Shown: positions 8,358-49,045 of the stretch, piece by piece
Numbering within the stretch: the first letter of the stretch is position 1
Layout: the number at the start of each line of letters is the position of its first letter
Source of the DNA: a virus
IMG/VR virus record: IMGVR_UViG_3300042559_002235
Coordinates: 1-49,111 of that record
Length of the DNA: 49,111 nucleotides
Reading direction: 5' to 3' (one strand)
Translations under genes and position numbers: made by a program
Notes under the pieces: generated by a model
Told to the model about the DNA's origin: nothing
Database searches by the model: none
Seen by the model: only the letters and a program-made list of their open reading frames with translations

Positions 8358-9035
8358 ATGAAGCATATTAGAACATTTGAAACCTATCGTATTAAAAAGA
8401 ACAGAGAAGAAATTATTAAAGAGTCTGTTTTTCAAGTAAACGATATTTATAAAGTTAAGACTATGATTGATATTCCTCAGTCATTAATTAATGCTTATGT
8501 GAAGAAAGTAAAAGATACTACTGGTAAAAACCTTCGTCAATTTTTTGGTGATGTTGACATCGCTGAAGAAATCGTTAAGTATATCAATATGAACAACTTA
8601 GATGTTGAAAAAATTCCAGGTGGAGCATTAATGGGTGGTCAAGCACAAGGACAAACTCAAGGTCAAGCACAACCACAAGTACAAACTGAAGGTGAGGCTC
8701 AAACTCAACCACAAGCTCAACCACAAGCTCAGCCACAGGCTCAACCACAGGCTCAGCCACAGGCTCAACCAGAAGGTCAAGCACAAGCTCAACCAGCTCA
8801 AGGACAAGCTCAACCAGCTCAAGGACAAACTCAAGGTGAATTTGAAGAACCAGCACAAGGTCAAGGTCAAGGTCAAGCACAAGGTCAAGCACAAGGTCAA
8901 GCACAAGGTCAAGCACAAGCACAAGGTCAAGCACAACCAGTTCAAGGACAAGCACAAGCTCAACCAGCTCAAGGTGAAGAAGAGGAAGAAGAGGAAGAAG
9001 AAACTGAAGAAGGTGAAGAAGAATTACCTCTTTAA
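8358..9035 (+). CDS. Gln/Ala/Pro-rich protein with capsid-targeting-like N-terminus
   Basis: 225 residues. The N-terminus MKHIRTFETY matches the recurring MKxIxxFE motif of this window. Residues 25-90 form a normal globular segment (DVDIAEEIVKYINMNN). From about 95 to 200 the protein is a run of Gln-Ala, Gln-Pro and Gly-Gln steps with almost no other residues. The C-terminus is a block of Glu (EEEEEEEETEEGEEE). The composition suggests a disordered or scaffold-like protein; T4 prohead core proteins are also small and acidic. Expression is from a strong late-type promoter. Function is inferred. Confidence 0.75.
   Translation: MKHIRTFETYRIKKNREEIIKESVFQVNDIYKVKTMIDIPQSLINAYVKKVKDTTGKNLRQFFGDVDIAEEIVKYINMNNLDVEKIPGGALMGGQAQGQTQGQAQPQVQTEGEAQTQPQAQPQAQPQAQPQAQPQAQPEGQAQAQPAQGQAQPAQGQTQGEFEEPAQGQGQGQAQGQAQGQAQGQAQAQGQAQPVQGQAQAQPAQGEEEEEEEEETEEGEEELPL
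8635..8976 (+). repeat. Low-complexity CAAGCxCAA repeat inside a gene
   Basis: About 340 bp of short repeats (CAAGGTCAAGCA, CAACCACAGGCT) encode the Gln/Ala/Pro/Gly tract. It opens long spurious frames on the other strand and in other frames, which I do not annotate. Confidence 0.85.
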
Positions 9036-23655: not shown

Positions 23656-25773
23656 ATGAAACCAGTTTTAATTGTAGAAAATTCGACAAATGCTCTTATA
23701 AGAGAAAGTGTCAATGGTAAGAAAGATTATATACTTGGTGGTACATTCACGGAATTCGGTGTTAAAAATCGTAATGAAAGAATTTATACTGCTGACAAAT
23801 TTCTTCCTGCTTTAAATGAGATGAATGATAGAATGAGCAGTCTAGGTGCTGTTTATGGTGAGTTTGATCACCCAGATGTTTTTGATACATCTCTTTCTAG
23901 AGCTTCTCACATAATTACAAAAGCAAATTATGTAAAAGAATCTAACCTTGTTAGTGGTGAAATTAGACTTCTTAGTACCTATTGGGGTAAAGAAGCTAAA
24001 GCATTAGTTGATGATGGTTGTCCAGTTTTTGTTTCTTCAAGAGCGGCTGGTATTACTGAATCAGATGGTACTGTTTCCTTAAAGAAATTATTTACTTATG
24101 ATATAGTAGCTGATCCAGGATTTGCATCGGCTAAGATGAGCGTGAAGGTTCTTAACGAGTCTTTGGGTTATAATCAAAACTCCAACTTTAGGATATATGA
24201 AATGTCCGATGAGTCCAAAATAAATCAACTATTTGATATGAACAAAAATGAATTTGTTACTAAACAACAGTTAACTGACTATTCTCAATATTTAGTTAAA
24301 GAATTAGCTTCTACTAAGAAAGAAGTTAAAGGTGCAATTTCTAAAGGTAACTTAAGTCCTAAAAAACTTGAACAACTTTTAGAGTATTACGATGAGTTAA
24401 ATAACACAAATTCTCAAGTTGTTAAGTACTTGGATTATTTGGCTGAGAAAGTTCAAATTATGGTTAATGAGAATAAGTCTTTAAAAGAGACTACAAATAA
24501 ACTTATTAAACATAATGACTATTTAGCCGAAAATCTTGAAAAGGCTGTTAACTACTCTGAGTATTTGGCTGAAAACTTAGATAAAAATATCGAGTATTCA
24601 GAATATTTAGCTGAAAATCTTGATAAAAATATTTCTTATTCTGAGTATATCGCTGAGAATTTGGATAAAAACATTTCTTATTCTGAGTATTTAGCTGAGA
24701 ATTTGGATAAAAACATTGAGTATTCAGAATATTTAGCTGAAAACTTAGACAAAAACATCGCTTACTCTGAGTACATCGCTGAAAACTTAGATAAAAGTAT
24801 CGCTTACGGTGAGTACATCGCTGAACACGTTGATAATTCAATCGCTTATTCAGAATATTTAGCTGAACACGTTGAAGGTAACATCGCTTACTCTGAGTAC
24901 ATCGCTGAACATTTAGATGATAATATCGCTTATTCAGAATATATCGCTGAAAACTTAGACAAATCAATTTCTTACCAAGGATTAATCGTTGAAAAATTAA
25001 ATTCTAAAGGTGGTAAATTATTTGAATCAAATGAAGAAGAAGCTTTCCCTTCATTACAAGCTGCTGGTTTCGAAGATGCTGAAGAAGATGAAAATTGTGG
25101 ACCTAACGCTACTGAAGAAGATGAAGAAGAATACAATGGTGTTCCTTCAGCTCACGAAGAAGAGGCTTACAATATGGAAAATGAAGAAGAAAATGAAAAT
25201 GAAGAAAATGAAGAAGAAGTTCATTCACATAACTATGAAGTTGGTGGACATGAAGATTCTGAATTATCTGAATCAATTAATAAATTAATAGAAGAAGCTA
25301 AAAAACGTAAAGTTTCTGAATCTACAGACTTGAATTTCTTAAAATTCTTAAACAAGTCACAAGTAGATAGCTTTTATGCACTATCAGACGAAGAACAGGA
25401 ATCTGTTAAACTTCACATAAACGAGAGAAGTTATTTCACATCCAAAGATGTATTAGGTCTAATTGCTGAAGCATTATCAACAAAGAATGAAACACTTGAA
25501 GAAAGAGTAATCAGATTAATGCCTGAAAACACTAAGGCTATCTGGAGTCAAATGAATGAATCTGCTAAAAAATCTATCTTATCACAAGCTAGACTTTACC
25601 CAGCTGAAGTTTTAATGAACGAATCTCAAGTTGAGCACTTCTGGGCAACTAGAAAGCTTAAAACAAATGAATCTGTAACTAAAAAGTTAGTATCACACGA
25701 AAGTCTTATACAAGAAGATAAACTTTCTGATAATGATGTTACTGCTATTATGGAAAGATTCAAAAACATCTAA
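23656..25773 (+). CDS. gp21: Prohead protease fused to scaffold-like repeat protein (gp21 + gp22-like)
   Basis: 705 residues. Residues 1-168 are a gp21-type prohead protease: DYILGGTFTEFG, NERIYTADKF, YGEFDHPDVFDTSLSR (His72 and a second His at 85), VSSRAAG (Ser127/128) and DIVADPGFASA. LNES at 166-169 fits the [LI]-x-E rule and may be a self-cleavage site. Residues 286-439 are 11 tandem 14-residue units (YSEYLAENLDKNIE), helical with two heptads per unit; nearly all contain LAE or IAE. An acidic region (about 455-545) and a helical C-terminus follow. In T4 protease and scaffold are separate proteins. Confidence 0.88.
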   Translation: MKPVLIVENSTNALIRESVNGKKDYILGGTFTEFGVKNRNERIYTADKFLPALNEMNDRMSSLGAVYGEFDHPDVFDTSLSRASHIITKANYVKESNLVSGEIRLLSTYWGKEAKALVDDGCPVFVSSRAAGITESDGTVSLKKLFTYDIVADPGFASAKMSVKVLNESLGYNQNSNFRIYEMSDESKINQLFDMNKNEFVTKQQLTDYSQYLVKELASTKKEVKGAISKGNLSPKKLEQLLEYYDELNNTNSQVVKYLDYLAEKVQIMVNENKSLKETTNKLIKHNDYLAENLEKAVNYSEYLAENLDKNIEYSEYLAENLDKNISYSEYIAENLDKNISYSEYLAENLDKNIEYSEYLAENLDKNIAYSEYIAENLDKSIAYGEYIAEHVDNSIAYSEYLAEHVEGNIAYSEYIAEHLDDNIAYSEYIAENLDKSISYQGLIVEKLNSKGGKLFESNEEEAFPSLQAAGFEDAEEDENCGPNATEEDEEEYNGVPSAHEEEAYNMENEEENENEENEEEVHSHNYEVGGHEDSELSESINKLIEEAKKRKVSESTDLNFLKFLNKSQVDSFYALSDEEQESVKLHINERSYFTSKDVLGLIAEALSTKNETLEERVIRLMPENTKAIWSQMNESAKKSILSQARLYPAEVLMNESQVEHFWATRKLKTNESVTKKLVSHESLIQEDKLSDNDVTAIMERFKNI
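24511..24972 (+). repeat. 11 tandem 42-bp units encoding a coiled-coil array
   Basis: Each 42-bp unit encodes 14 residues of the type YSEY[LI]AENLDKNI. Units 2-7 are nearly identical; units 8-10 diverge (EHVDNS, EHVEGN, EHLDDN). A twelfth, degenerate unit follows. Confidence 0.9.
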
Positions 25774-47080: not shown

Positions 47081-47551
47081 ATGTTTGAATTGAAAGGAAT
47101 TATAGAGTTTGACCCAATTAACGTGACTAAGAAGCACAATGCTCAGTCTAGTTGGAAGAAAACTGCTATGGTGAAGTTCGATGATGATACTTTTGCTTAC
47201 TACGCTTGGTTCTTAGAAAAAAGATTCAACTTGAAGTTGAACAAACCTTTAAGAGGAACTCACGTTACTATTATCAATGATAGATGTGATGATGAAATCT
47301 ACGCACAAGCTAGAGAAATATTCCACGGAAAAGAAATCACTTTACAATATGATCCAACTTTAATTAGATCTAACGATAAAGGTCACTGGTGGTTGAAAGT
47401 TTATTGTGATGATGCTAGAAACATTAGAACTGCTATGGGTTTAACTCCAGATCCTTACTTTGGATTACACTTAACTATTGGTTTGGCTACTCACTTACAA
47501 TTAGAACACTCTAAATACATAACCGAACAATGCATAAGATTCAACCTGTAG
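47081..47551 (+). CDS. 2H phosphoesterase-like protein
   Basis: 156 residues. Two H-x-T motifs, GTHVTIIND (about 59-67) and GLHLTIGLA (about 127-135), match the catalytic pair of the 2H superfamily, which opens cyclic phosphodiesters. Between them are acidic and helical segments. 2H proteins include RNA-end enzymes and the anti-CBASS protein Acb1 of T4-like phages. No direct Acb1 similarity is visible, so the substrate remains open. Confidence 0.65.
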   Translation: MFELKGIIEFDPINVTKKHNAQSSWKKTAMVKFDDDTFAYYAWFLEKRFNLKLNKPLRGTHVTIINDRCDDEIYAQAREIFHGKEITLQYDPTLIRSNDKGHWWLKVYCDDARNIRTAMGLTPDPYFGLHLTIGLATHLQLEHSKYITEQCIRFNL

Positions 47552-47602
47552 TATTTTAAAGTAATTGAATATAACGATACTCAGATATATTTAGGTTTTC
47601 TT

Positions 47603-47612
47603 TTAATATATA
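47603..47612 (+). promoter_or_regulatory. Late-type promoter motif TTAATATATA
   Basis: Exact motif 20 nt before the ATG at 47633. Confidence 0.55.
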
Positions 47613-47632
47613 CACTAAAATAACATACGAAG

Positions 47633-47830
47633 ATGGAAAATAATAAACACATACAAAAGTTCAATGAACATCAAGAAAACTTGAATATATCTGATGTTAG
47701 TGATGGTGAAAAAATTACTAATCTTATTCAAATAATCGAGGATTTATATATCAATTGGGAGATTAAAACGATAGATGTATATATGAAGAAGAATAAGGAT
47801 AAAATAATAAATATTATAAAAAGTAAATAA
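47633..47830 (+). CDS. Small protein with capsid-targeting-like N-terminus
   Basis: 65 residues starting MENNKHIQKFNEHQ; the internal KHIQKFNE resembles the motif of other genes here, with F-N-E as a possible cleavage point. The rest is helical and Lys/Ile-rich. The stop lies 16 nt before the first structured repeat, so the C-terminus may have been altered by that element. Confidence 0.5.
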   Translation: MENNKHIQKFNEHQENLNISDVSDGEKITNLIQIIEDLYINWEIKTIDVYMKKNKDKIINIIKSK

Positions 47831-47846
47831 TTTTTTAATTATCACT

Positions 47847-47894
47847 AACGATTGAGTGTAAAAAATCGTTTTAATGTTTTTTACACTTTGTTAT
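47847..47894 (+). repeat. 48-bp hairpin repeat, copy A
   Basis: It begins AACGATTGAGTG and ends CACTTTGTTAT. The inner AGTGTAAAAAA/TTTTTTACACT stem is 11 bp. Copy B at 48385-48432 differs at one base in 48. Confidence 0.9.
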
Positions 47895-47977
47895 GTATTA
47901 GTAAAAACTTAATTATTCACTTGGATAAATATTTTTGTAAAATAGAAACTCATAATTAAGTTTTTATTATACATAAC
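47890..47977 (+). repeat. Inverted repeat IR-1, arms 47890-47916 and 47952-47977
   Basis: Arms of GTTATGTAT, a 3/2-nt asymmetric bulge and a second 15-bp stem (TAAAAACTTAATTAT). The 35-nt loop holds TATTTTTG, a possible host-type -7 box, but no gene. IR-3 has the same 9-bulge-15 layout with changed bases. Confidence 0.85.
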
Positions 47978-48228
47978 GGTTACAGATAAACGAATGTAAA
48001 ATTAAAAAAATATGGAACGAATACTTAAAAAAATACTTTTACAAAAATTAAATAAACACGATAAGGTTGATTACAAAAAACTAAACATTGATAAACATTC
48101 ATATACGAGTGGATATTCAAATGGTTTTGTACAAGGATTTTTTCTTGCACGAAAATGGATAGTTGGAATAGTGATTGTATTAGCAATATCGCTGATTTTT
48201 AATTTTATTTCGTTTATCTGATGTTATG
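47972..48228 (+). repeat. Inverted repeat IR-2 around a small gene
   Basis: CATAAC, a bulge and CAGATAAACGAA (47972-47994) pair with TTCGTTTATCTG, a bulge and GTTATG (48209-48228). The arms enclose the gene at 48012. The CATAAC is shared with IR-1. Confidence 0.75.
48012..48221 (+). CDS. Small membrane protein within IR-2
   Basis: 69 residues. A basic N-terminus (MERILKKILLQKLNKHDK) and a Gly/Ser/Phe-rich middle (SGYSNGFVQGFFLARKW) lead to one C-terminal membrane segment. The stop codon overlaps the right arm of the inverted repeat. No family recognised. Its placement between the arms suggests it travels with the element. Confidence 0.55.
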   Translation: MERILKKILLQKLNKHDKVDYKKLNIDKHSYTSGYSNGFVQGFFLARKWIVGIVIVLAISLIFNFISFI

Positions 48229-48271
48229 TTTAACGAAGTGTAGTTGTGAGGAACGAACAATTAAACATAAC
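48223..48271 (+). repeat. Hairpin GTTATGTTTAA/TTAAACATAAC
   Basis: Perfect 11-bp stem around a 27-nt loop. It begins in the GTTATG of IR-2 and ends in another CATAAC. Confidence 0.85.
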
Positions 48272-48322
48272 TATTATATATCTATAATTAAACTAAATCA
48301 CTTATTTTATATATGATTCTAT

Positions 48323-48412
48323 ATGAAAATTCTTAAAATATTTGAAGAAAAGTTAAGATATAAAAATCACTCTTCTTCCAAAACAACGGTTGAGTGTAAA
48401 AAATCGTTTTAA
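48323..48412 (+). pseudogene. Capsid-targeting-type ORF cut by hairpin repeat B
   Basis: Twenty-nine codons: MKILKIFEEKLRYKNHSSSK, then residues encoded inside repeat B (from 48385) and a stop at 48410-48412. The start matches the MKxIxxFE motif and follows an ATATATG-rich promoter-like stretch. The natural 3' part seems lost or displaced by the repeat. Confidence 0.5.
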
Positions 48413-48432
48413 TGTTTTTTACACTTTGTTAT
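48385..48432 (+). repeat. 48-bp hairpin repeat, copy B
   Basis: AACGGTTGAGTG...TTTGTTAT, 47 of 48 bases the same as copy A at 47847. Confidence 0.9.
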
Positions 48433-48634
48433 AAATATGTAAAACTAAAATTATACAATATGAAAAAATACTTTATTAAACAAGAATTGATGTGTGGTGA
48501 AGTTTATCACATGATATATGTAAGATGGTTTGGATTATTTGAATCATTTTATGAAAGGTGGAATACTTATGAAACAGCGAAAATAAGACTGAACGAATTA
48601 AACAATTCATAATTTTAGTTTTATTATTTATAAC
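48428..48634 (+). repeat. Inverted repeat IR-3 around a small gene
   Basis: Arm 1 (48428 on) is GTTATAAAT, ATG, TAAAACTAAAATTAT. Arm 2 (48609-48634) is its complement with AA in place of ATG. The layout matches IR-1. The arms enclose the gene at 48460. Confidence 0.85.
48460..48612 (+). CDS. Small protein within IR-3
   Basis: 50 residues, start chosen at MKKYFIKQELMCGEV because the longer frame (from 48412) lies in the hairpin repeat. It is aromatic-rich (YVRWFGLFESFYERWNTY). The stop codon overlaps arm 2 of the inverted repeat. No family recognised. Confidence 0.5.
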   Translation: MKKYFIKQELMCGEVYHMIYVRWFGLFESFYERWNTYETAKIRLNELNNS

Positions 48635-48688
48635 TGAGATATATACACACGTTTCAAATCAATTATTGAGTAAAGTAAATCTACCAAT

Positions 48689-49045
48689 ATGAGTGATGAT
48701 TTTTTTGATAGTTTTAAAGGTAAGCCTAAATATGACCATAAAGTAAGAGTAGTTCATTTTAAGAAAGAACCTTTTGACATTTATATTGGTCGGTTACCAA
48801 ATGGTAAATACAATAAGTGGTCTTACCCTAAAGAATTGCGTGATACTTTTCCAGAGGGAACTACGAGAAAAAAAATCGTAGATGCTTATGAAGAGTATTT
48901 ACTTTCTAATGAAGAATTAATGAATGACTTACATGAATTAAAAGATAAAGTTCTTGGGTGTTGGTGTAAAAATTTAGGAGGTGGTGGTAAATCTTGTCAC
49001 GGAGATATACTTGTTAAATGGGTAAAGAAAACTTGTAATGATTAA
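48689..49045 (+). CDS. DUF4326 protein
   Basis: 118 residues. FDIYIGRLPNGKYNKWSYP, GTTRKKIVDAYEEYLL, ELKDKVLGCWCKNL and SCHGDILVKWV are the DUF4326 blocks, with Cys and His residues that could hold a metal. The family occurs often in phages and is uncharacterised. The usual GNPF is changed to SYPK. Confidence 0.8.
   Translation: MSDDFFDSFKGKPKYDHKVRVVHFKKEPFDIYIGRLPNGKYNKWSYPKELRDTFPEGTTRKKIVDAYEEYLLSNEELMNDLHELKDKVLGCWCKNLGGGGKSCHGDILVKWVKKTCND

Follow-up and report, generated by a model that had tools for sequence, protein, structure and literature searches.

Introduction

Classical integrons mostly carry single-gene cassettes arranged in one direction, the ends of which are complementary over 9–10 nt, and they also contain gene-less cassettes and cassettes inserted at secondary sites. 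These traits recur at the phage locus described here, together with a tyrosine recombinase, an attI site beside its gene, and hairpin sites with AAC/GTT cores, as found in classical integrons (PMC2727003), in which the attC complement is known to extend over 9–11 nt (PMC2727003). The present system differs from them in four respects: its recombinase lacks the IntI insert; its hairpins have an asymmetric spacer (4–5 nt on one side and 1–2 nt on the other) with no evident extrahelical base; in the phages, the attC-like site lies upstream of each gene and the genes face attI; and reading frames cross the recombination junction. The IntI-specific insert, of about 42 residues, has been treated as a defining part of IntI that integrons need in order to function (PMC2426708, PMC8138268), and it is not fully conserved in an integron-like subgroup (PMC8138268).

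CALINs have been reported in phages, Polaribacter phage P12002L among them, as has the recombination of P12002L attC2 with attI1 under IntI1 (Qi et al. 2023, PMC9892861). Close to its methyltransferase genes, P12002L carries two hairpins that belong to the present class, and the assayed attC2 may be one of these. The P12002L CALIN shares with our locus the hairpin class with the TCGTTTTAATG loop and its occurrence in a virulent Bacteroidota phage, and differs in being reported without an integrase; a dedicated recombinase family, attI, and gene orientation like those seen here are not known to be described for it (PMC9892861). This earlier work greatly strengthens an integron reading and reduces the novelty. 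Simple Xer recombinases, XerA in particular, resemble the present recombinase in giving its best profile match and in having no IntI-type insert, but the recombinase here is tied to cassette arrays and attI, not to dif. In the open-access literature outside bioRxiv, no description of this integron-like lineage was found. Here we report that the locus is very probably a cassette array belonging to an integron-like element that is carried by a phage and has had its own recombinase gene destroyed.

Results

Organization of the array

The window, that is, the whole stretch of 49,111 nucleotides analysed, is a fragment of a virus record and carries genes for a terminase, a portal protein, and a major head protein. 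Toward its right end, X units (TAACG ... GTTA, forming a hairpin or a long stem) alternate with Y units (GTTA plus 5–6 nt ... complement plus TAAC), as follows.

47081–47551, + strand: left flanking gene A, 156 aa, with a weak 2H-phosphoesterase match (Pfam 2H-SAK, E = 0.0017, under the cut-off)
47572–47699, + strand: attC-like unit X0 (TAACGATACTCAGATATATTTAGG..ATATCTGATGTTA), with a start codon and leader peptide
47633–47830, + strand: 65-aa ORF, starting in X0 and running across the GTTA junction into Y0
47696–47849, + strand: cassette body Y0 (GTTAGTGAT..ATCACTAAC)
47846–47893, + strand: attC-like hairpin X1 (48-bp hairpin at 47847–47894), loop ATCGTTTTAATGT, with stem covariation
47890–47977, + strand: cassette body Y1 (IR-1), without a gene
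47974–48226, + strand: long attC-like unit X2 (IR-2), with a 69-aa ORF (48012–48221) in its loop
48223–48271, + strand: cassette body Y2, without a gene, the last before attI
48268–48293, + strand: attI-like site TAACTATTATATATCTATAATTAAAC (predicted cut after TAAC, before TATTATATATCTATAATTAAAC), identical in L014 and L017
48323–48387, + strand: recombinase remnant, N-terminal residues deletion-joined to a C-terminal HSSSKTT segment
48384–48431, + strand: attC-like hairpin X3 (48-bp hairpin at 48385–48432), with stem covariation
48388–48634, + strand: inserted cassette X3+Y3, target ACAAC/TGAG of the recombinase remnant
48428–48634, + strand: cassette body Y3 (IR-3), with a 50-aa ORF (48460–48612)
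48635–48692, + strand: recombinase remnant, C-terminal end ..EIYTHVSNQLLSKVNLPI and stop
48689–49045, + strand: right flanking gene B, 118 aa, DUF4326 (Pfam, E = 1.8e-14)

The first-pass annotation had described the part from X1 to Y3 as a chain of structured inverted repeats, and its observations were confirmed: the 48-bp hairpins of X1 and X3 are identical at 47 of 48 positions; IR-1 and IR-3 share the plan of a 9-bp stem, a 3/2 bulge, and a 15-bp stem with perfect arms; the 69- and 50-residue ORFs are present; and neighbouring units have CATAAC/GTTATG junctions in common. The window has exactly two instances of the 9/3-2 bulge/15 plan, whereas 60 shuffles of its entire length under a dinucleotide model gave none. 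The chain is, however, longer than then described, starting at 47572 and ending at the attI-like site (48268–48293). The segment 48272–48384 is not an empty spacer: besides the attI-like site, it contains the beginning of a recombinase gene, the end of which follows IR-3.

The 69-aa ORF lies nearly entirely within the X2 loop, has a hydrophobic stretch at its end, and weakly matches Pfam SLATT_5 (E = 0.0018, under the cut-off). Searches of the cassette proteins against Pfam and PHROGs gave no match above the cut-off, and searches of the window for Rfam families and for tRNA/tmRNA genes returned none. Elsewhere in the window, a long tract of QAQAQPQAQ repeats marks the protein encoded at positions 8358–9035; this stretch also has long ORFs in its other frames, which seem to arise merely from the repetition. 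The protein encoded at positions 23656–25773, of 705 aa, contains many successive repeats of the YSEYLAENLDKNI type.

Structure of the hairpins and cassette bodies

In an alignment of 48 distinct hairpins of equal length, stem positions were paired in 96.1% of cells as against 79.0% in shuffles, and 121 cells were altered on both sides as against 37.6. The covariation score was 0.437 versus 0.123 for shuffles, none of 500 shuffles reaching it, and the signal was destroyed by sliding the partner by 1–3 columns. Covariation favouring a conserved fold, proposed earlier from IR-1 and IR-3, is thereby borne out for the hairpin stems. The constancy of AACG, of the loop TCGTTTTAATG, and of GTTA is no evidence of the same kind, because these were fixed by the pattern with which the hairpins were collected.

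Classical attC sites have extrahelical bases (a G in L'' and a T downstream). The short hairpins here form a continuous 12-bp stem with no one-sided bulge and no evident counterpart of an extrahelical base, and the spacer between outer and inner stems is asymmetric (4–5 versus 1–2 nt). The paired arms of attC (R''/R' and L''/L', with a structure-conserved stem) do have counterparts, in that the inner stem covaries and the body ends extend the R pairing to 9–10 bp. Among 235 bodies, collected by a search that demanded an outer complement of at least 9 bp, the complement is exactly 9 or 10 bp and never more, as would be expected if the two cassette ends pair in a circle. Accordingly, the conserved 9-bulge-15 fold proposed earlier stands in its outer part, the 9–10-bp stem being common, and not in its inner part: a stem resembling the 15-bp one was found in about 11% of cassettes (0.3% in mismatched controls), and the 15-bp stem was dropped as a general part of the element.

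Association with attI and a recombinase gene in viruses

The pattern of the 48-bp hairpin occurs in 26 viral stretches, nearly always as AACG-hairpin-TGTTAT followed by a small gene, which may be the same as or different from that in the window. A looser pattern was found in at least 120 viral stretches and in 36 bacterial ones, many of which come from Bacteroidota. The records used in this study are for the most part metagenomic contigs. One viral stretch (L072) holds a long array of more than 10 units, and many stretches shared in an all-against-all comparison end at GTTA or TAACG. The integron-integrase profile TIGR02249 matched, below its cut-off, in 15 of 38 array-bearing viral records. 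In L223, a gene of this kind comes directly after the array. A scan with a profile of the recombinase alone gave 417 viral relatives.

Counted over 80 of these 417, array units lie upstream of the recombinase in 65 of the 66 relatives with at least 0.9 kb of sequence there and downstream in 4 of 77. The density of body units is 1.33 per kb upstream, compared with 0.07 in shuffled and 0.02 in downstream sequence. The attI-like sequence TAAC/TATTATATAT precedes the recombinase start codon by about 55 bp in nearly all relatives inspected. Two features by which integrons are recognised, an integrase gene beside the array (in the window, its remnants) and an attI adjoining that gene, are both found.

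Orientation of cassette genes and junction-crossing frames

In the unbiased recombinase set, the main ORF faces attI in 228 of 238 phage bodies with an ORF and points the opposite way in 10. The classical arrangement, in which a gene is followed by its own attC and reads away from attI, is not that of the phages and is that of the bacterial relatives described below. Of the attI-facing phage ORFs, 87 of 228 (38%) begin before GTTA, usually inside the X unit, and cross the junction, with recurrent leaders such as ..NLNISD/V and ..KKLHISD/V joined to differing bodies. The 65-aa ORF of the window is one of these predicted junction-crossing frames.

Properties of the recombinase

The recombinase is a tyrosine recombinase (Pfam PF00589), in which the catalytic R, K, H, R, H, and Y are invariant in 18 relatives. 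Its predicted fold (pLDDT 86) is structurally closest to the Vibrio cholerae integron integrase (2a3v), and its best NCBIfam profile is XerA (NF040815), below the cut-off of that profile. In a phylogenetic tree the phage recombinases cluster strongly, while the deep order and the placement of IntI1 are unsettled on account of long branches.

A conceivable alternative is that a phage has acquired a classical integron, with the IntI additional domain and canonical attC sites, as has been reported for 21 phages. The 9–10-bp complement resembling an R box, the AAC-G core, and the combination of array, attI, and integrase would all fit such an origin, and so would the reported activity of P12002L attC2 with IntI1 (PMC9892861). 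The recombinases, however, do not: between the catalytic motifs they are 41–43 residues shorter than IntI1, the region of the IntI insert, which spans 88 residues in IntI1, comprises 45–47 in those array recombinases, from phages and from bacteria, that were compared with it, so that no IntI additional domain is apparent, and the three scanned score 151–158 bits against the TIGR02249 cut-off of 265. The reversed orientation of the phage genes relative to attI also argues against it, and we regard a classical integron as very improbable. The enzyme is simpler than that of a classical integron.

A broken recombinase gene and an inserted cassette

At the locus of the window, gene A is the conserved left neighbour and gene B the conserved right neighbour in relatives. 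In L014 and L017, the array is followed by TAACTATTATATATCTATAATTAAAC, an intact recombinase of 265/266 aa, and directly 3' of it gene B, gene A lying further upstream of the array in L017. In a tblastn comparison with the L017 recombinase, residues 1–23 matched in part at 48323–48391 of the window and residues 247–265 matched at 48633–48689 with 100% identity. When the flanks of 48388–48634 are joined, they read CCAAAACAAC then TGAGATATATACACACG, which is exactly the L017 sequence around the target; X3+Y3 is therefore one inserted cassette with a known target. Thus, judged from the restored flanks, what had been the last unit of the first-pass annotation is a cassette inserted in the C-terminal remnant of the recombinase gene. 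L231 has the same cassette at 99.5% identity; the hairpin upstream of the body is shared, while the site downstream is another one. Because the recombinase of the window is dead, any movement of X3-Y3 after that loss would have needed a recombinase acting in trans.

Relatives also differ in what occupies this locus. Gene A is followed directly by gene B, with no insert, in L008 and L015, other cassettes fill the locus in some relatives, and L012 has another recombinase remnant. With the same cassettes present in other phages and other contexts, the earlier description of filled and empty cassettes of a mobile element proves essentially right, and the mobile-element interpretation is supported; its further proposal that the structure itself is recognised is probably correct as well, the recombinase being the presumed reader. 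What that description had not contained is the integron-like nature of the element, the mobile unit composed of a hairpin and the following GTTA..TAAC unit, and the wreck of a recombinase gene adjoining it.

In L069 (2740–3030), an X+Y cassette lies within tRNA-like sequence (..GTGGTAGCTC/GGTTGAGTG .. TAAC/GTTAGGCTCATAACC..). From its sequence, this appears to be a second insertion at a secondary site besides that of the window.

The moving unit

Where one body unit recurred in several contexts, the upstream hairpin was kept in about half of some 25 informative pairs and the downstream hairpin in essentially none, each pair being listed twice in the table of cassette pairs, once per strand. 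In shared cassettes, either the upstream hairpin was kept or both neighbours had changed; the upstream one alone never had. The retention of the upstream hairpin, together with the split remnant, defines the cassette as a hairpin and the following body, with a presumed cut at AAC/G. That both neighbouring hairpins differ in about half of the pairs suggests, in turn, that hairpins evolve faster than bodies or are exchanged separately, and chimeric hairpins exist, e.g., GAGTGTAAAAAA..TTTTTTATACGC. Among the units of the window, X0 has homologues with differing right-hand neighbours in L121, L132, L135, L194, L207, and L214, and a unit nearly identical to Y2 occurs in L072 with a different junction.

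The chimeric hairpins could also be explained if the repeats were structured UTRs or terminators around small phage genes, and if hairpins recombined with one another solely by common homologous or illegitimate routes. The position of the hairpin ahead of genes would fit this, as would a role of its stem and loop at the RNA level. Such shuffling is highly unlikely in view of the boundaries at TAAC/GTTA, the exact-ended cassettes in the recombinase remnant and in an apparent tRNA gene, and the attI and recombinase that accompany the arrays. Recombination by the integron-like system itself is the presumed source of these rearrangements.

Bacterial relatives

Related recombinases adjoin arrays of similar form in Bacteroidia chromosomes. 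Of 395 genomes from the class to which Winogradskyella belongs, 198 have a related recombinase (E < 1e-55), usually in a longer open frame. Arrays were counted in a small, non-random sample of fetched loci: a perfect GTTA..TAAC cassette lies 53–156 bp after the match in 10 of 18 high-ranking loci, several of these cassettes being preceded by TATATAAACAA-like sequence, and adjoins the recombinase in 4 of 13 usable lower-ranking loci, with 0 of 13 on the upstream-side control. All 24 bacterial array genes read away from the recombinase. A similar arrangement is present on a Chryseobacterium plasmid. The bacterial recombinases first found via TIGR02249 (L224–L229) had no arrays nearby, and the array-bearing chromosomal relatives were reached only through the later profile search. 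In the cultured Bacteroidota phages Leef_1, Ingeline_1, and Freya_10, the integrases are 36–37% identical, with 1–3 scattered matches to the body test.

Two side observations concern the bacterial sequences. Seven of 20 fetched contigs (L372–L374, L376, L381, L386, and L388) end less than 400 bp downstream of the recombinase, as if local repeats broke the assemblies. The recombinases of L325–L344 have N-terminal extensions of very variable length, up to about 280 residues, and many of these contain a recurrent W-S-x-x-x-x-x-W-x-x-P-D/N motif that is absent from the phage form.

Discussion

The array, the attI, the intact recombinase in relatives, the cassette boundaries, the insertion with its empty target, and the covariation can each be read from the sequences, and together they point to the integron-like element proposed above. 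Several observations weigh against it: both neighbouring hairpins differ in about half of the informative cassette pairs, the hairpins have no extrahelical bases of the classical kind, the recombinase does not have the insert considered essential in IntI, and an adjoining array was seen in only a minority of the lower-ranked bacterial relatives. Movement of the units as non-autonomous hairpin transposons (IS200/IS605- or REP-like) with small cargo, driven by a Y1 transposase, would account for hairpins with a common loop, precise ends, and the coexistence of gene-less and gene-bearing copies, but has very little probability, given that the units share AACG/GTTA junctions head-to-tail and that nearly every array adjoins a conserved attI together with a tyrosine recombinase. 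No Y1 transposase came to notice beside the arrays.

For the integron-like element we propose the following mechanism. A cassette consists of an attC-like hairpin unit (AACG..GTTA) and a body (GTTA..TAAC), usually with a single small gene. The recombinase, a short tyrosine enzyme of the XerA/IntI type whose gene lies immediately past attI in related phages, would recognise the hairpin folded in single-stranded DNA and cut at the AAC/GTT core, both the single-strand folding and the exact position of the cut being presumed. Cassettes would be excised as circles, the presumed intermediate, in which the two 9–10-bp body ends pair and complete the hairpin, and would be inserted at attI (TAAC/TATTATATAT), with secondary AAC/GTT sites used now and then, presumably also by a recombinase supplied in trans. 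The genes would be read toward attI and are presumably expressed. Each has a hairpin unit of its own in front of it, and this unit would often give the leader, the start codon, and the first residues of the product.

We are slightly inclined to a broader view, in which a widespread integron lineage occupies chromosomes, plasmids, and phages of Bacteroidota and has been missed by standard detection because its integrases lack the IntI-specific domain. On the same broader view, since the phage cassettes are inverted, each phage attC would act as a portable module for translation start and leader peptide that builds fusion proteins across the junction.

If the integron-like reading is true, arrays with attI and mobile cassettes but without the IntI insert would represent a second, or ancestral, way to recognise folded attC, and an active gene-capture platform would reside inside hundreds of phages. 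Bacteroidota is a phylum in which few integrons have been counted (PMC9024848). Similar cassette sites would link the gene pools of phage and host, and the frames that run from the recombination site into a captured gene would offer a simple route to new fusion proteins.
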